Below the pieces are notes generated by a model. It was not told where the DNA came from. It worked only from the letters and a program-made list of their open reading frames with translations, and ran no database searches. From Acidobacteriota bacterium (lineage in GTDB: Bacteria; Acidobacteriota; Terriglobia; Terriglobales; Acidobacteriaceae): 35,863 bases of DNA. Made by a program: the position numbers and the translations under genes. Positions 1 to 7,813 of this stretch are shown here, piece after piece. The DNA is taken from positions 1-35,863 of the forward strand of contig JAJYSV010000042.1 of the NCBI GenBank assembly GCA_021793405.1, written 5' to 3'. Each line of letters starts with the position of its first letter. The stretch's first letter is position 1.

Positions 1-530
1 ACGCTCAGGTACGCCGAAAGCGCGCGCAACTCCTGATCGCTCAGTTGGAATTTCGGCATGCGTGGATCGGTGTCCACGCCGTCAACAGTCACGTTGCCAT
101 CCGCGTCGGTGAGTGTGCGCGGCTCTTTTAGCCACTTGTAGATCCATTCGCGGCTCACCTTGGTCCCCACGCTGGTCAGGTCCGGTCCCAGCATGGCGGG
201 GCGATCGATGTCCTGAAGGCGATGACATGCGATGCAATTGAACTTTACGATCAACTGCCGGCCATGGTTCAGACGGGGCGTCTGGTGAAGGTCATCTCGA
301 TGGCATGCTCCGCAGCTACCTTGTACGTATTGTGTTGGCAGGACCGGCTGCTTCCATGCGAGTATGCCGGGCCGCATGTCTACGGACCGGACGGGCCCCC
401 GCTTGTACTGTTTCCAAGCGTGCCAATCCGTTCTTGCCTGCCAGAAGATCAGGACCAGCAGAACTGCTATACAGAGGGCGAACACATAAGACGCCCAGGA
501 AAGGGCCTTTTGCAGTTTTTCAGATGACAT
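1..530 (-). CDS. Membrane-anchored diheme cytochrome c (C-terminus beyond window edge)
   Basis: Open frame from an ATG at 530 running off the left edge, about 176 residues visible. An uncleaved-looking N-terminal helix (residues about 10-30) anchors it in the inner membrane. Two haem c motifs follow: CGACH (Cys73, Cys76, His77) and CIACH (Cys99, Cys102, His103), and a DPRMPKF segment around Met158 may supply an axial methionine. A GGAG-like ribosome site sits about 6 nt before the start. It is the last visible gene of a minus-strand operon behind two copper proteins and an outer-membrane cytochrome-porin, which suggests it carries electrons between periplasmic copper proteins and the inner membrane. 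The haem motifs are seen directly; the electron-transfer role is known for the family; the direction of flow is inferred. Confidence 0.85.
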   Translation of the reverse strand, partial: MSSEKLQKALSWASYVFALCIAVLLVLIFWQARTDWHAWKQYKRGPVRSVDMRPGILAWKQPVLPTQYVQGSCGACHRDDLHQTPRLNHGRQLIVKFNCIACHRLQDIDRPAMLGPDLTSVGTKVSREWIYKWLKEPRTLTDADGNVTVDGVDTDPRMPKFQLSDQELRALSAYLS

Positions 531-675
531 GCCTGCTCCACGGCGAGGGTACGGCGTATCGTACGCAGCTTCGGCAGATTGAACGAGCATTCTTACATTT
601 GCAATTGAATTTCAATCCGCTCAGGTTCACAACTTTGCCTATAGCATCCACACGCAAACCTCCATTGCTCAACGC

Positions 676-1347
676 TTATTGCTTCACGGTCAGGTCCACG
701 TTCGTTGTCTGCCGCATAGGACAGCCGCATGGGACACAGTTGCAGCCAGGCTTGGCCCTGGCGCCCGTATCGACTTGCACGGTCAGCGCCTGCGTCGTAG
801 GCTTGGCGTTTTCGCTCCACGTCTTCAACGTGTACCGGCCTGGAGGGACATTTTTGATCGTGTAGATCCCTTCTTTGTCAGTCACCGCAAAATACGGTGT
901 CGGCACAACGACAATGTAGCCCGACATTTCGGAGTGGACTTTGCAGAGCAATGGGACGACGCCCAGTTCATCGAAGGTGAAGGACTTCACAATCCCTTGC
1001 GGCCATGTGCCCATATTGTGCGCCAATTTATGGTCGTTATTGATGGCGGGCCAATACACGTTGTGTTGGACATGGTCGTCGTTGAGAAAGTTGACGGAGG
1101 TCCCCTTCAAAATGACAAGTACATGCGGAACGAATTCCATCCGCGCCTGGTCCATGACCGCATGTAGCAGAGGCGGCGCAAATGTCTTCCCCGGAATGCT
1201 ATCGATATAAACAACGATATTTTCCGGGGAACGCAATCCTCGCGCTGTGACCTTTCCTTGCACATCCCCTGCCTTGGCAAAGTGCGCCAGCAATACCACC
1301 AGGACCAAAACAGCGGACAACACAGCGATCTTCTTGTGTTCGGACAC
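676..1347 (-). CDS. Secreted cupredoxin (type-1 copper protein) with C-terminal carboxypeptidase-regulatory-like domain, paralogue A
   Basis: A 223-residue exported protein. The GTG start at 1347 is preferred over an ATG 54 nt upstream because AAAGGAGA lies 6-7 nt before it and a signal peptide (residues 1-26, ending FAKAG) follows at once. Residues about 70-150 form a plastocyanin-like domain with His95, Cys135, His138 and Met141, the classic type-1 copper set (CKVHSEM). Residues about 150-192 resemble a carboxypeptidase-regulatory beta sandwich (TDKEGIYTIKNVPPG). It is a tandem duplicate of the next gene upstream, with all four ligands at identical positions. Unlike its twin it carries an extra segment near the end with four cysteines (CNCVPCGC, residues 202-209). 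Likely a periplasmic electron carrier; the extra cysteines could bind a second metal, which is inference. Confidence 0.82.
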   Translation of the reverse strand: MSEHKKIAVLSAVLVLVVLLAHFAKAGDVQGKVTARGLRSPENIVVYIDSIPGKTFAPPLLHAVMDQARMEFVPHVLVILKGTSVNFLNDDHVQHNVYWPAINNDHKLAHNMGTWPQGIVKSFTFDELGVVPLLCKVHSEMSGYIVVVPTPYFAVTDKEGIYTIKNVPPGRYTLKTWSENAKPTTQALTVQVDTGARAKPGCNCVPCGCPMRQTTNVDLTVKQ

Positions 1348-1404
1348 AGCTACGTCTCCTTTCAGGAGGTTGTGAAAGTTGCCAAAGTCTCCGCCGCTCA
1401 ATCA

Positions 1405-2016
1405 CTATCTCTTTACTGTCAAGTTGGCGTTCGCGATGCCGGCACCCACAGTCACCGCCTGGGTCGTAGGCTTGGCTTCTTCGCTCCACGTCGTCAAGGT
1501 GTACTTGCCGGGCGGAACATTCTTGATGGTGTAGTTGCCTTCTTTGTCCGTCAACGCAAAATACGGCGTCGGCACGACAATTATGTAGCCGGACATCTCC
1601 GGATGAACATTGCAGAGCAAGGGAACGTCGCCAAGCACATCGAAGGTGAACGGTTTCGAAATCCCCTGTGGCCAGGTACCCATATTGTGCGCCAGCTTGC
1701 GATTGCGGTTGATGGCCGGCCAATATATGTTGTGGCCGACCGGGTCCTCATTCGTGAAGTCGACCGTCGTTCCCTTCAGGATGACGAGCACATGCGGGAC
1801 AAACGCCAGATGGTGCTGGGCCATGACGGCATGCTGTGCCGGCGCAGGAAATGTCTTGCCCGGTATGGCATCGACGTAAACGGCAATGTTCTCCGGAGAG
1901 CGCAGACCCTGCGCAGTGACCTTTCCCTTCACATCTCCTGCCCAGGCAGAAGTCGCGATTGTTCCCAGTACAAGCAAAACGACGGCCGGAAAAACGATCT
2001 TCTTTAAATTGCTCAT
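1405..2016 (-). CDS. Secreted cupredoxin (type-1 copper protein) with C-terminal carboxypeptidase-regulatory-like domain, paralogue B
   Basis: A 203-residue exported protein. The second of two close ATGs (2016) is preferred: GAGGAG lies 8 nt before it but only 2 nt before the ATG at 2022. A signal peptide covers residues 1-26 (ending SAWAG). The cupredoxin domain shows His95 (GHNIYW), Cys135, His138 and Met141 (CNVHPEM), and is followed by a regulatory-like sandwich (TDKEGNYTIKNVPPG). It lies 59 nt after the cytochrome-porin gene and 57 nt before its paralogue, on the same strand, so the four genes are probably cotranscribed. Similar fused proteins are often annotated as methylamine-utilisation-like or plastocyanin-like. 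The copper ligands are seen directly; the role as an electron shuttle is inferred from the neighbours. Confidence 0.83.
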   Translation of the reverse strand: MSNLKKIVFPAVVLLVLGTIATSAWAGDVKGKVTAQGLRSPENIAVYVDAIPGKTFPAPAQHAVMAQHHLAFVPHVLVILKGTTVDFTNEDPVGHNIYWPAINRNRKLAHNMGTWPQGISKPFTFDVLGDVPLLCNVHPEMSGYIIVVPTPYFALTDKEGNYTIKNVPPGKYTLTTWSEEAKPTTQAVTVGAGIANANLTVKR

Positions 2017-2075
2017 TTGCATATCTCCTCAATGTAGTAGTTTGTGTTGGCTCGGGGCCGATCTATCGCGCGTTG

Positions 2076-3545
2076 TTAAAACACAAAATCAACCCCTGAT
2101 ATGAACTTGTTGTCGCGATAGAATGTGTTGGTCCCAGGGACAGGCTGTTGGTAGCTAAAGGAATACTGCGACTCCAACTTAATGTTGGGACGCGCAAAGA
2201 TTTGCAATCCAGGGCTATAGATGTTCCGCGTGTCGTAGCGGGAGATGCCATTCAGGCGGTCCGTGGGAGAGTTGACCCCGTCGTAGCGCATCAGACCGAT
2301 GAGCCACGGATAGAACCAGTATTCGGCTTCGAGGAAGCCCCCGGAGAAAGTCACCGGCGTGGCGGACACAAAGGCCGTGCCGGTTGGGTTCAGTGCCTCA
2401 TTGGAATCATGGGCATGCTCCATAAGGCCCCAGAGTTCAAAGTCTCCGCGGAACCTATAATCGAACGCGCCGCCGGCACGATAGAAGGGCTCGTGAATTG
2501 TCGGCAGCCCGGCGTATAGGGTCCCTCCCTGGTTAAGGGCGTTGCTGCCGAAGTATCCGAAGGCGTTGAACTTTATCCATGTGTGGTCATGAATGCCGGT
2601 CGGACCGGATGCCTGGATTTGTTTGCGGATCGCCGGATTCCGCTCCAGATTCCAGCCTTGCCAAAGATTGACATAGACGTCTTTGGAATTGCGCGCGGAC
2701 AGCGGCGCGGTTCCGTATAAGGCGTTCTCTCCGTCCACAATGGAGACTGTCCACCAGGAATACCCTTGATGCGGATACCCGCCAAACTCAATTCCACGCT
2801 GAGGCGATGCAAAGGTAAACGGGTTGGCCGTCGTCCCAGGGAGCGGGCCAGTACCGGTGGGGTTGATATAGGCCGTCTCGTCGTAAATTGCATAGTCGGT
2901 CAGGTTGATGGTGCGCGCCTGGGTAAATGGAAGATCAAGCTCAAATTGTCCATACCGGACATTGAGATCGTTTCTGGGAACATGCAGGTAATATCCGAGG
3001 AAATTGTTGGCCTTGATGTAAGCATCTCCCAAGCCTCCATCGGCCCCTGAACCGCCTGTGGTGAGATCGTCATCGATCCAGAATTCAAGGGAGGGACCTA
3101 GACTGCTGGCGGCAATGATGGTAAAGGTGTTGGGTTCAAAAATATCAGTTTGCGGAACAAATCCTTGTGTAGCAATTAGTGCAGGCGGCTGAGGGCTGTT
3201 GTAATTGAAGTAGCCGGAATAGCGGAAGGCGATTGGTAGAATTGGAAGTTCCCCTGGCCATATGGAATGGGGAAATGCCTCCTTTTGCGCCGGGGCCCCC
3301 AGCATAAGAGGCGGCTCTTTCACGAAATCTTCGTCATCCTTTGGAAACTTGAATCCATTTTCTTTGAATGCCAGCCCGAAATCATTGAGCTCTGGCCAAT
3401 TGCTGTGGCAGGTGGAGCATGCGGTGTGGTACTTTCGCGCGAAGGCCGGGATCGCCTCCGCACGCGGTGCTAAAACTTGAATCGCTAGCAAAATGCCTGC
3501 CACTAAGAACATTCTGGTAAGGGACAACCTGATTTCCCGATCCAC
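2076..3545 (-). CDS. Outer-membrane monoheme cytochrome-porin, Cyc2-like
   Basis: 489 residues from a GTG at 3545, with GGGAGGA about 9 nt upstream. The signal peptide ends near residue 31 (RAEA). Directly after it comes a single haem site CSTCH (Cys43, Cys46, His47) inside IPAFARKYHTACSTCH then WPELNDFG and FKENGF. This order (A/P-FAR, CxxCH, P-x-LN-x-FG, FK-x-x-G) is the signature of Cyc2-type fused cytochrome-porins. The remaining 430 residues are rich in alternating aromatic and polar residues, as in a beta barrel, and end in Phe, as outer-membrane barrels usually do. Cyc2 proteins pass electrons across the outer membrane, for example from Fe(II). Here the gene leads an operon with two copper proteins and a diheme cytochrome. 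The substrate cannot be read from sequence, and related monoheme barrels exist with no known role. Confidence 0.75.
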   Translation of the reverse strand: MDREIRLSLTRMFLVAGILLAIQVLAPRAEAIPAFARKYHTACSTCHSNWPELNDFGLAFKENGFKFPKDDEDFVKEPPLMLGAPAQKEAFPHSIWPGELPILPIAFRYSGYFNYNSPQPPALIATQGFVPQTDIFEPNTFTIIAASSLGPSLEFWIDDDLTTGGSGADGGLGDAYIKANNFLGYYLHVPRNDLNVRYGQFELDLPFTQARTINLTDYAIYDETAYINPTGTGPLPGTTANPFTFASPQRGIEFGGYPHQGYSWWTVSIVDGENALYGTAPLSARNSKDVYVNLWQGWNLERNPAIRKQIQASGPTGIHDHTWIKFNAFGYFGSNALNQGGTLYAGLPTIHEPFYRAGGAFDYRFRGDFELWGLMEHAHDSNEALNPTGTAFVSATPVTFSGGFLEAEYWFYPWLIGLMRYDGVNSPTDRLNGISRYDTRNIYSPGLQIFARPNIKLESQYSFSYQQPVPGTNTFYRDNKFISGVDFVF

Positions 3546-3626
3546 GCTGACAGTTCCTCCCGTGTCGTGTTTTATCTTGTTGTATTCCGGAGCGCTTGCC
3601 TTGAATTTCTTTGGTGCATGACTGCG

Positions 3627-4001
3627 TTACAGATGAGCGCCTACTTCACAGAGAGACCATGGGTGCTTACCTTGAATGTGTCGTTCGGGAGTAACTCGGC
3701 TGCAAGTGCGGCAAACCCCGCCGCCGTCACAGGCGGTCCCACGCTTGTCCCCGATGCCTTCAACATATATTCGACCGACCGGAAAACACCGGCAATAGAT
3801 GCCATGCGCCAGCAACGCACATCCATACTTGCCGCGCAGAAAGTCGTGCACCGTGCTTTGACAAACGCATCGGACTTCTCCGCATCGAGTAACTCCCGCA
3901 GTCGAGGGTAAAACGGGCGCCCCGGAGGCAACTACCAGTCCTGTGTGTGCAACCCACAAATCTTTCTGCCTTGCCCGCTGCTCTTGTCTGCCCATTGTCA
4001 T
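3627..4001 (-). pseudogene. Decayed N-terminal part of an IS1182-like (DUF772-type) transposase
   Basis: The N-terminus typical of these transposases is recognisable, but spread over two frames. One frame begins MTMGRQEQRARQKDLWVAHT at 4001. A second frame supplies RPFYPRLRELLDAEKSDAFV (about 3920-3850). The first frame then resumes with KYGCALLAHGIY, YVEGIGDKRGTA and TPERHIQG, matching the family pattern of P-G-I-Y-F-R, Y-F-E-G-I-D-S-E-R-G-I-A and T-P-D-H-S-T. So at least two compensating frameshifts have occurred, many residues are substituted, and the catalytic remainder is absent. It lies between the cytochrome-porin operon and a CRP-like palindrome and may have separated the two. Inverted termini were not found. 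Confidence 0.65.
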
Positions 4002-4067
4002 GTCCGTTAGACGCTTTCCAACGACTCTTGTATCCCTTCAATCAATCACTTTCACTACAAGCGTGAA

Positions 4068-4083
4068 TGTGATGGCCATCACA
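4068..4083. promoter_or_regulatory. Perfect CRP/FNR-family palindrome
   Basis: TGTGATGGCCATCACA is a perfect 16-bp palindrome matching the CRP consensus TGTGA-N6-TCACA. It sits 67 bp upstream of the transposase remnant and 523 bp upstream of the cytochrome-porin gene, so its present target is unclear. A related site lies in the universal stress protein promoter. Confidence 0.5.
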
Positions 4084-4258
4084 CCTATACTTGTGACTTA
4101 TGTAGTAGGCATTACCAGGACATGGGAATCCTGAAGTGGAGGATTTCCTTTGCGGCGCACTTTTTGTAAAACAGCACGGGCGAACGATGAAATTGGGGGG
4201 ATGAAGAATCTCATTTTTCCATTAACTGTGGCTTCCTGCAGGCATGGCCGGTTGGCCC

Positions 4259-4867
4259 CTATTGCCCCAAGTCAACAGAAAGCGTTCCTTCTGTCGTTCT
4301 ATTCTCCCAATTGCGAAACAGGTACGGAGCGGTCAAGAGAGCCTGAATTCCAATCCATGTTAGATAGCAAGCAGCTGCTGTCACGGCGCTGATGTCACTA
4401 AGGTTGGATTGTGTGGACAGAATAATTCCGATAACGGATGTTATCCCTGCAAGAACACACAGCACACCTGTCTTTCTTGGAGAGGCGTGCAAATGAAACG
4501 TCAGTCCTATATACAACAGGCTCCAAAAGAGACCATACAATCCAGCAAGCAGAACAAGTACATCCAAAGGGGCTAATCGGTACAGCCAAAAGACAAGCCA
4601 GCAAACAACGGAAAATATTCCAACCCAAAAGTAAATGTATAGCTCGCGACGGCGCCATGTCCTATTCGCCAACAGCCCGTTACAAGCAATAAGAGCTTGC
4701 CCAAGCAGGCACATGGCTGTCAGGAAGACAGCCACGATGTAACCGAATGCCTCAATCTTCGGTTTTGTCATAAAGGAACCCAAAGAACAAAGCGCCATTC
4801 CGACACATAGCGTGAACACACCCTGTCCCATCAAAAAACGATGGCCAACTTTCCATCCTTTTACCAT
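4259..4867 (-). CDS. Multi-pass membrane protein of unknown function
   Basis: A 202-residue, very hydrophobic protein. The ATG at 4867 is preferred over a GTG at 4903 because GAGAGG lies 8 nt before it. About six hydrophobic segments are visible, including GVFTLCVGMALCSLGSF, IVAVFLTAMCLLGQALIAC, YFWVGIFSVVCWLVFWLY, VLVLLAGLYGLFWSLLYIGL, GVLCVLAGITSVIGIIL and AVTAAACYLTWIGIQALL. The repeated spacing suggests short paired helices. No catalytic motif or known family is recognised. It lies just downstream of the universal stress protein on the same strand (147 nt gap), so the two may be cotranscribed. The base composition is more AT-rich than the neighbouring genes, which might indicate transfer. 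A real gene is likely; its function is unknown. Confidence 0.65.
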   Translation of the reverse strand: MVKGWKVGHRFLMGQGVFTLCVGMALCSLGSFMTKPKIEAFGYIVAVFLTAMCLLGQALIACNGLLANRTWRRRELYIYFWVGIFSVVCWLVFWLYRLAPLDVLVLLAGLYGLFWSLLYIGLTFHLHASPRKTGVLCVLAGITSVIGIILSTQSNLSDISAVTAAACYLTWIGIQALLTAPYLFRNWENRTTEGTLSVDLGQ

Positions 4868-5014
4868 TGCAAACACCTCTCTTTTTCCGAAAAGAGTCCT
4901 CACGAGAACTTACTGCTCGCTCAATCTACGGGGACCAAGGCGACGTCATTATCGCATCTCTGTTTGTTCTTTGGTCGTTACGGATTGCCTGTTGCTGCAC
5001 TTCATCTAAGTCGA

Positions 5015-5941
5015 TCATCCATGCGGAGCCAGAGTCGTCTGTCCCCAAGCCGACTCCTGTTTGAGCACAAGAACAGGACACTGAGATTCACACAACACAC
5101 GATACGCCGTCCCTGGAATAAAGCGCGAATCGAAGGCGGAGTGCGCGGAAGCGCCGAGAATGATCATGTCGGCGGAGTGCTGTTTAGCATATTCCAGAAT
5201 TGCACCTACCGGTTGTCCTTGCATAACTTCACACGATGGCCTGCTGTTTTTGATTGTTCTCATCGTGAGCAACTCCTGTAGCATAATTTTGGCGTAACCT
5301 GTCACACGCGCCGCAGTGGGATGCCCCTTCGCAACCTCTGGGCAGACATGCACGAGCGAAATGTCCGCACCATGGTTCTCTGCAACGCTGAGAGCAAATT
5401 CTGCCATCCGCCTGGAATCATGGTCTAAGGAGGCGGCAAACACGATCCGCATAGGTGTTTGTGACGGCGCTTTCTTGACGATCAATTTGGGGCCAACCGC
5501 CAGGGCCGGGATTTCTATGCTGTGGAAAATCGATTCCGCAACAGAGCCGAGAAGATGTAAATTGGGTTTCGCTTTCCCCTGAGAACCGGCAACCAGACGG
5601 TCCGCCTTCCATTTGTCTGCGATCCGTATGACTTCCTCTACCACTACCCCGGCCACTGTACTGGAGGAACACCGTATGCCAGCACGCTCCACCGTTGCGA
5701 CGGCCTTCTTCAACGTGTTCTCAGCGGCCTTTCGCATCCGCCCAGACGAGCAATATGCCATCAGCACAGGATCAATCTGTAGGGTGTTCAGATTGGGCAA
5801 GATATGTGCGATCTTCAACTCTGCTTTGTTTGCCAGCGCCTGTTGCATCGCAATTGGAAGCGTAAACTTCAAATCCGAGAGACTGGTTGCCAGAAGAATA
5901 CGGCGCGGATTGGCCCATCGCTGTATTCGGCTGCTGGACAT
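5015..5941 (-). CDS. Tandem-domain universal stress protein (UspA family)
   Basis: 308 residues in two Usp domains (about 12-152 and 162-299). Domain 1 starts RRILLATSLSDL and has VAGSQGKAKPNLHLLGSVAE, close to the ATP-binding G-x2-G-x9-G-S pattern. Domain 2 starts MRIVFAASLDHDSRRM and has ILGASAHSAFDSRFIPGTAY, in which the first part of the pattern is degenerate. Domain 1 is therefore the more likely nucleotide-binding half. The ATG at 5941 follows GAGGAA by about 6 nt. Usp proteins are cytoplasmic stress and survival factors, often induced by low oxygen or altered redox state. The upstream region carries two CRP-type half-palindromes at activator positions, which fits such control. Family assignment is firm; the stress it answers to is not known. 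Confidence 0.92.
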   Translation of the reverse strand: MSSSRIQRWANPRRILLATSLSDLKFTLPIAMQQALANKAELKIAHILPNLNTLQIDPVLMAYCSSGRMRKAAENTLKKAVATVERAGIRCSSSTVAGVVVEEVIRIADKWKADRLVAGSQGKAKPNLHLLGSVAESIFHSIEIPALAVGPKLIVKKAPSQTPMRIVFAASLDHDSRRMAEFALSVAENHGADISLVHVCPEVAKGHPTAARVTGYAKIMLQELLTMRTIKNSRPSCEVMQGQPVGAILEYAKQHSADMIILGASAHSAFDSRFIPGTAYRVLCESQCPVLVLKQESAWGQTTLAPHG

Positions 5942-7501: not shown

Positions 7502-7813
7502 TTAGGAGACCTGTTTTTCGAAGCCTTCTGGAACACCTGTCACGCCAGGTTTTCCTGGATCTGAGGCAGGCTTGTGAAGAACGCGATGAATGGTGGCACG
7601 TGAGACGCGATAGGACTTCGCCAACTGGCCCAGGCTCTGACCGTGGCTGCGGTCCCGCAGGATGCCGACGCGATCGAGGTCGAGCGGTTTGCGGCCGATG
7701 TGACGGCCTTCGAGCTTCGCGCGCCGCATGCCGGCGCGCACTCGCTCGACGATCAGGTTTCGTTCGAGTTCCGCGATGGCGCCGATAATCACCACGACCG
7801 CCCGACCCAGCGG
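7502..7813 (-). pseudogene. C-terminal fragment of a serine recombinase (resolvase/invertase family)
   Basis: The frame reads PLGRAVVVIIGAIAELERNL then IVERVRAGMRRAKLEGRHIG and ends in a resolvase helix-turn-helix (GQSLGQLAKSYRVSRATIHR). This is the long E helix plus the DNA-binding domain of Tn3/Hin-type serine recombinases. The N-terminal catalytic domain with its active serine and arginines is missing: intact proteins are about 190-210 residues and only about 103 are left. The family match begins abruptly near 7813, next to a sequence resembling an IS21 terminus, which suggests a deletion or insertion junction. An ATG at 7795 could in theory start a 97-residue product, but it could not catalyse recombination. 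DNA-binding activity alone cannot be ruled out. Confidence 0.8.

Follow-up and report, generated by a model that had tools for sequence, protein, structure and literature searches.

The window analysed here is the whole contig C33 of an Acidobacteriota genome (G000), with a length of 35,863 nucleotides. Its first 3545 bases hold four genes on the minus strand, coding for a porin (P0001, 2076-3545), two cupredoxins and part of a c-type cytochrome. An earlier note on this DNA had interpreted these genes as a candidate extracellular electron-transfer operon. Reading of the upstream bases revealed candidate ribosome-binding sites before the likely starts of the porin and both cupredoxins. For comparison we used a set of 100 genomes including G000 (G-numbers) and individual loci (L-numbers). 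Named relatives are labelled Acidobacteria, Acidobacteriaceae or Terriglobia, with the exception of one partial match labelled Proteobacteria. The features of the operon are as follows.

2076..3545, minus strand: Cyc2-like fused cytochrome-porin of 489 amino acids (aa) with GTG start, assigned from its motif, a 16-strand model and OprP/OprO as best PDB matches; gggagg precedes the start.
3387..3455, minus strand: Cyc2-defining stretch, residues 31-53 (AXPXFAR[Q/K][T/Y], CXXCH, PXL), by comparison of the sequence with the motif of PMC8406198.
3405..3419, minus strand: CSTCH, the single c-type haem motif, residues 43-47; both C and the H are invariant in 33 aligned rows.
2082..3233, minus strand: predicted 16-strand beta-barrel, residues 105-488 (AlphaFold2 model).
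1405..2022, minus strand: exported type-1 cupredoxin with CarboxypepD_reg-type domain, copy 1 (Pfam; ligands by reading).
676..1347 (open frame to 1401), minus strand: exported type-1 cupredoxin with CarboxypepD_reg-type domain, copy 2 (Pfam; likelier start by the AAAGGAG before it).
715..750, minus strand: Cys-rich tail PGCNCVPCGCPM of cupredoxin 2 (C-x-C-x2-C-x-C), a possible extra metal site.
1..530 (open reading frame 3-590, likely start 530), minus strand: N-terminal part of a membrane-anchored hexahaem cytochrome c (Cytochrom_C Pfam match), the rest of which lies on contig C60.
447..503, minus strand: membrane segment near the N-terminus of the cytochrome, where hydropathy in a 19-residue window peaks at 2.5 (residues 30-48 of the long frame).
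300..314, minus strand: CGACH, corresponding to haem 3 of octahaem relatives (sequence, alignment).
222..236, minus strand: CIACH, corresponding to haem 4 of octahaem relatives (sequence, alignment).
L109 10904-12187 (contig C60 of G000) and L037 11621-12880: gene for a protein of about 420 aa.

Judged by its sequence and its model, the product of 2076-3545 is a Cyc2-like cytochrome-porin. The protein has one CXXCH in 489 aa and an N-terminal hydrophobic segment in the hydropathy profile (candidate signal sequence). Its AIPAFARKY-HTA-CSTCH-SNW-PEL stretch leads into PELNDFG and FKENG, exactly the CSTCH, PELN-FG and FK-x-x-G reported in the earlier note, and the chain ends in a C-terminal F. 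Cyc2 proteins have been defined by an AXPXFAR[Q/K][T/Y] motif that precedes CXXCH by five residues, PXL that follows it by four, a length of at least 365 aa and an OprO/OprP-like 16-strand barrel, OprP and OprO being the porins named for Cyc2-PV1 (PMC8406198; this and the other papers cited by PMC number are quoted from parts of their text). In the window protein AIPAFARKY spans residues 31-39, R37 and C43 are separated by five residues and PEL occupies residues 51-53. Motif and spacing, PXL, single CXXCH, length and predicted barrel are thus all as in the published definition. Alignment of 33 porin rows showed that P33, R37, C43, C46, H47 and L53 are invariant.

An AlphaFold2 model based on this alignment displayed 16 long strands (mean predicted local distance difference test, pLDDT, 72; predicted template modelling score, pTM, 0.71). 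Foldseek returned OprP (2o4v) as top PDB match for the model. Structural alignment with VIA-align 2 likewise ranked OprP 2o4v first (Z 25.8, root-mean-square deviation 2.9, 308 residues aligned), with OprO 4rjw second (Z 25.3, root-mean-square deviation 3.1, 313 residues aligned). Other porins followed at Z 21-24, so the barrel is a general one rather than specific for Cyc2. Foldseek's best 50 PDB matches contained no cytochrome-porin, which has no bearing against the family.

The cytochrome had been described as a dihaem protein. This count turned out to be an artefact of the contig edge, since the window begins inside the cytochrome gene. Proteins from complete genes of relatives span at least about 646 residues and have six CxxCH motifs (six in 5/5 complete window-type relatives of the genome set), and in G000 the two CxxCH in the window are complemented by four at the end of contig C60. 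We therefore rejected a dihaem protein in favour of a hexahaem cytochrome. C60 adjoins the window at this gene: it holds an exact copy of the first 120 bases of the window, and this copy begins 125 bases from where the compared stretch stops, 2 bases short of the contig end. The terminal overlap, window positions 1-127, is probably 127 bases long, a pattern of de Bruijn assemblers. Alignment with two octahaem relatives placed the hexahaem protein at haems 3-8, and the segment carrying haems 1-2 is missing.

Beyond the remainder of the hexahaem gene, C60 codes for a small monohaem cytochrome (80% identical to that of a relative) and the protein of about 420 aa (72%), followed by a reading frame on the opposite strand. 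The proposed four-gene unit is present with all its members but is incomplete, as the operon extends by these two genes past the window. The last gene codes for an exported protein in the window operon and in both other types of operon described below. Two examples of it gave no Pfam match at an E-value of 0.01; there was no PDB match at E <0.001, and its model is of low confidence (pLDDT 69, pTM 0.46).

Both cupredoxins carry a C-terminal fn3_3/CarboxypepD_reg domain, confirming their description as domain-fused copper proteins. For copy 1 the Pfam scores are 19.2 bits for Copper-bind (below the cut-off of 21.2) and 35.5 bits for CarboxypepD_reg (above cut-off). For copy 2, Copper-bind (24.0 bits) and fn3_3 (26.7 bits) lie above their cut-offs and CarboxypepD_reg (32.1) just under 32.3. 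The likelier start of copy 2 is the GTG at 1347, preceded by AAAGGAG. By reading, the four type-1 copper ligands are given by GHNIY/QHNVY and C-x2-H-x2-M in the two window copies, and the pattern H...C-x2-H-x2-M was found in 27/27 cupredoxins from the loci of 23 relatives. Within these loci the C-x-C-x2-C-x-C tail, a possible extra copper site, is confined to the second cupredoxins of tandem pairs, where it occurred in 4/4 examined copies (G002, G008, G021, G007). The twin arrangement is real in the window but was rejected as a defining feature, a tandem pair being present in only 5/15 named window-type loci; G003 and G004 have their second copy on a different contig. A phmmer search with copy 1 listed 15 PDB matches up to E 10, among them amicyanins, copper nitrite reductases and plastocyanins; rusticyanin was not among them in this sequence search.

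We then compared gene order around the porin across the 100 genomes. A match to P0001 was detected in 61 of them and an orthologue (E <1e-90) in 26, one of which (G005) is cut to 318 residues by a contig end, leaving 25 full-length orthologues. In 24/25 a cupredoxin gene on the same strand follows 51-147 nucleotides downstream, a distance taken between the matches rather than between stop and start codons; for the remaining one (G012) only 139 bases of contig are left after the porin match. More broadly, at least 50/111 porin-family matches have a cupredoxin within 5 kb, at least 49 on the same strand, where uniform placement in a 4-Mb genome predicts about 0.6. This count of 111 omits two rows, G086 C44 and G075 C151, each a second fragment of one gene.

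Three types of operon were distinguished among the 24 loci, and Pfam agreed with the gene assignments in the examples scanned. The window type (8/24: G000, G002, G003, G004, G007, G008, G021, G053) has the order porin, one or two cupredoxins, hexahaem cytochrome, monohaem cytochrome and the uncharacterised gene; in G004 and G007 the contig breaks off within the hexahaem gene. In the bc-type (14/24) the cupredoxin is followed by a GltD/NfnA-like flavoprotein, Rieske protein, cytochrome b, subunit IV-like protein, octahaem cytochrome, monohaem cytochrome and the uncharacterised gene. Thirteen of these are complete with the octahaem gene in one fixed order and one (G014) ends in cytochrome b. The best PDB relatives of the flavoprotein include NfnA, NfnI alpha and the glutamate synthase small chain. 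In the dihaem type (2/24: G018, G023) a single cytochrome with two CxxCH (313 and 341 aa) replaces the Rieske/cytochrome b and octahaem genes and is followed by the uncharacterised gene. In the window and the other seven window-type genomes of the set, the core (genes for a Rieske protein, cytochrome b, subunit IV and an NAD(P) oxidoreductase) is missing from its place between cupredoxin and cytochrome. Linkage of the four genes, a test proposed in the earlier note, thus held for porin and cupredoxin wherever it could be tested (24/24), whereas the gene further downstream is hexahaem in 8, octahaem in 13 and dihaem in 2, with one contig ending early. Upstream of one bc-type operon (L064 of G059, 3220-5088) we also observed a frame with eleven CxxCH.

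Twenty named loci, partly from the same genomes, gave a similar picture: 15 are window-type and 3 bc-type as far as their contigs reach, and the contigs of L045 and L048 end too early for typing. The monohaem and uncharacterised genes were found in 12/15 of the window-type loci; L034 and L035 end before them, and L051 has the monohaem gene, with the uncharacterised gene not found. In L047 (6001-7444; PLZC01000148.1) the porin matches in two pieces in different frames, which makes it frameshifted or misassembled.

The regular neighbourhood bears on whether these proteins form an extracellular wire at all. A haem porin and copper proteins could instead serve metal handling or envelope redox stress, e.g. 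copper or nitric oxide detoxification, with cytochromes that act in the periplasm only. The Cys-rich tail of cupredoxin 2 could bind copper, cupredoxin relatives occur in 89/100 genomes compared with 26 for the porin orthologue, and divergent Cyc2 homologues have no proven function (PMC8406198). However, the adjacency of porin and cupredoxin in 24/25 orthologues, in operons that include multi-haem cytochromes and, in 14, Rieske/cytochrome b genes, fits such a role poorly, and neither a copper exporter nor a nitrite reductase was seen among the operon genes identified. We regard this reading, with no extracellular wire, as improbable.

All four window genes are under purifying selection. Between the window and three relatives, the ratio of nonsynonymous to synonymous substitutions (dN/dS) lay at 0.05-0.07 in the porin and stayed under 0.33 in each of the four genes. 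Because dN/dS is low and the gene order is conserved, the operon is not a product of chance. The same data argue against a decaying remnant, i.e. a window-type operon left functionless without its Rieske/cytochrome b core. The absence of that core and of two haems would suit such decay, but a dN/dS range of 0.05-0.33 across the four genes and the order porin-cupredoxin-hexahaem in 15/15 named window-clade loci reaching far enough (counting L047 with its porin in two frames) leave it very unlikely.

In a tree of the 33 porin rows the window-type sequences form one clade (100/100). This clade is nested with bc-type rows from other families (supports 89/98, followed by 88/70 and 87/66), and bc-type rows of the window's own family are more distant. 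The window operon probably descends from a larger operon that also encoded a dedicated Rieske/cytochrome b/NAD(P) oxidoreductase complex and that many relatives have kept. A single loss of this core, rather than a gain in the relatives, is the simplest reading of the sequences; we consider it likely and not certain, because the rooting rests on long branches. The missing haems 1-2 would fit the loss of the part that meets the Rieske/cytochrome b complex.

Further electron-transfer genes were found elsewhere in G000, where three more porins match P0001 at the haem region (C70, C55, C71). By reading, the strict Cyc2 motif is present in the C55 porin, and those on C70 and C71 deviate at one or more positions. 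On C70 (L077 1862-8804) the haem-plug porin is followed by a monohaem cytochrome, a GltD-like flavoprotein, a Rieske protein, cytochrome b and a hexahaem cytochrome, and on C55 (L078 7247-11808) by a Rieske protein and an 889-aa fusion of cytochrome b with a tetrahaem cytochrome. A third Rieske/cytochrome b pair lies on C126 near a COX1-family gene. G000 contains four COX1-family matches in total and no RuBisCO match, so Calvin-cycle autotrophy was rejected; other carbon-fixation routes were not searched.

Upstream of the operon, window positions 4259-5941 (minus strand) code for a membrane protein to which Pfam gave no significant match; a gene for a universal stress protein is also found there. 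A relative of the membrane protein lies 5' of the porin in 8/13 named window-clade loci with at least 2.5 kb of upstream sequence and downstream of the operon in 4/13; it was not found in L039. A short open frame at 7502-7795 (minus strand) resembles, by eye, a piece of a serine recombinase (resolvase) and is perhaps left over from a mobile element.

With moderate confidence we interpret the operon as an extracellular electron conduit across the cell envelope in which inward flow is more probable than outward. In this conduit the outer-membrane monohaem cytochrome-porin would exchange electrons with an extracellular partner, most likely dissolved Fe(II)/Fe(III), and one or two periplasmic type-1 copper proteins would ferry them over the periplasm. 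The inner-membrane-anchored hexahaem cytochrome and the small monohaem cytochrome would then pass electrons to or from the respiratory chain. As the quinone-facing core and the two N-terminal haems are missing, the wire is likely to connect with a terminal oxidase or a common pool of cytochromes. The conduit proposed in the earlier note is thus supported in its porin, copper proteins and linkage but was incomplete, as the Rieske/cytochrome b context of 14/24 relatives is not visible from the window.

The direction of flow was weighed separately. Electrons from quinol or NAD(P)H could run outward via Rieske/cytochrome b, cytochromes and cupredoxin to the porin and reduce Fe(III) or another extracellular acceptor under O2 limitation. 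The Rieske/cytochrome b complex in the operons of 14/24 relatives and the three such gene sets elsewhere in G000 speak for this direction, and the lack of a RuBisCO match would fit a heterotroph shedding electrons. Acidobacterium capsulatum and Acidicapsa ferrireducens are reported to reduce Fe(III), and it has been proposed that in Acidithiobacillus ferrooxidans under anaerobic conditions Cyc2 itself is the terminal ferric reductase (both PMC8790237). Yet it is exactly the quinol-oxidising core that the window clade is without, and all three Cyc2 proteins tested biochemically oxidise iron (PMC8406198). Outward flow therefore keeps an appreciable but clearly smaller share of our confidence. 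We favour an inward conduit because the tested Cyc2 proteins are iron oxidases, the clade lacks the quinol-side core and the genome has haem-copper oxidases. Flow from an Fe(II)-type donor to the haem-copper oxidases of a heterotroph is, we think, about twice as likely as outward flow.

Several points weigh against the inward conduit. The haem domain of the porin was modelled poorly (pLDDT block means 41-62 for residues 31-100), as were several loops, and the plugged haem therefore stays a candidate: of the barrel with haem plug suggested for structure prediction, the 16 strands with OprP/OprO as best matches were recovered, but the haem region is of low confidence. No sequence profile gives the porin a named family. 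Searches of Pfam and NCBIfam returned none at E up to 10, and PDB sequences gave two matches at E near 1 with the single sequence and none with the alignment. Placement in the Cyc2 family, the other check that had been suggested, accordingly agrees with the definition of PMC8406198 but finds no significant match in these sequence models. The likeness was established against a published description of the family. Homologues in Cyc2 Cluster 3, to which the porin here may belong, are those whose function is called 'most uncertain' (PMC8406198). Acid-water Acidobacteria have been reported as Fe(III) reducers (PMC8790237), with which outward flow fits too. There is no terminal oxidase among the operon genes identified. 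Nesting of the window clade has moderate support (89/98, 88/70, 87/66) with a long-branch outgroup, and one of its 13 window-type tree rows, L045, ends before the operon is visible. The evidence as a whole consists of sequence comparison and structure prediction; a library of viral structures yielded no informative match.

The bc-type operons of the relatives resemble, by domain make-up, the Kuenenia anammox complexes Kustd1480-1485 and Kuste4569-4574 (PMC12954380). Both combine a split cytochrome b with a subunit-IV-like protein, a Rieske protein, an octahaem cytochrome and an NAD(P) oxidoreductase-like flavoprotein with Fe-S domains. Compared with Kuenenia, the Acidobacteria add a cytochrome-porin and a cupredoxin ahead of these genes, and the window operon is without the complex. 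It has been proposed that the anammox complexes use quinol to form NAD(P)H, with a second, favourable reaction taking place at the cytochrome; for one of the two complexes such a partner reaction has not been suggested (PMC12954380). In our hypothesis, the porin would give an anammox-like complex access to an extracellular partner that provides this reaction. We tentatively extend this, as a speculation less probable than not, to a widespread acidobacterial outer-membrane-coupled Rieske/cytochrome b system: an anammox-type NAD(P)-linked complex would exchange high-potential electrons via cupredoxin and a Cyc2-type porin, extracellular metal redox reactions would drive or balance NAD(P)H, and the window operon would be its stripped wire. 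If so, divergent Cyc2 homologues would gain a defined respiratory partner. The gene order ties a Cyc2-like branch to a copper carrier (24/25 orthologues), with a Rieske/cytochrome b complex in 14 of these, and makes direction of flow and an extracellular iron partner directly testable questions. A further suggestion is that heterotroph-like Acidobacteria may commonly engage in iron-linked electron exchange.

Cyc2-type conduits are already known, but a combination with these partners in such an operon is described nowhere in the literature searched. The gene combination was not found in the titles and abstract openings of the open-licence papers covered, and the words Acidobacteri and cupredoxin are absent from the main text, the part covered, of PMC7029218 and PMC12442345. 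Compared by description, the window porin shares motif, OprO/OprP-like barrel and length with the fused cytochrome-porins Cyc2 of Acidithiobacillus, Cyc2-PV1 of Mariprofundus and Cyt572/Cyc572 of Leptospirillum, and differs from these systems, as described in the texts cited, in its partners: a fused-domain cupredoxin, a hexa- or octahaem cytochrome and, in relatives, Rieske/cytochrome b. Network neighbours of Leptospirillum Cyc572 include proteins of Acidobacteria (PMC10654088), so the porin may lie in or near that group. The cupredoxins share the H...C-x2-H-x2-M ligands and the Copper-bind match with amicyanin/plastocyanin-type proteins, but the window copies add the C-terminal CarboxypepD_reg/fn3_3 domain, and copy 2 the Cys-rich tail. 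The closest analogy in logic is the rus operon of Acidithiobacillus ferrooxidans (Cyc2, Cyc1, rusticyanin, aa3 oxidase), in which the chain of Cyc2, copper protein and cytochrome c is an acknowledged Fe(II) route (PMC8790237). Both have an outer-membrane cytochrome-porin, a periplasmic copper protein and a c-type cytochrome. In contrast to the rus operon, no cox genes are among the operon genes identified here, the hexahaem gene being followed by the monohaem gene, the uncharacterised gene and the opposite-strand frame with no aa3 cox genes. The cytochrome is hexahaem and not c4-type, and in place of rusticyanin, to which the sequence search gave no match, the window operon has a copper protein with a CarboxypepD_reg-type domain.

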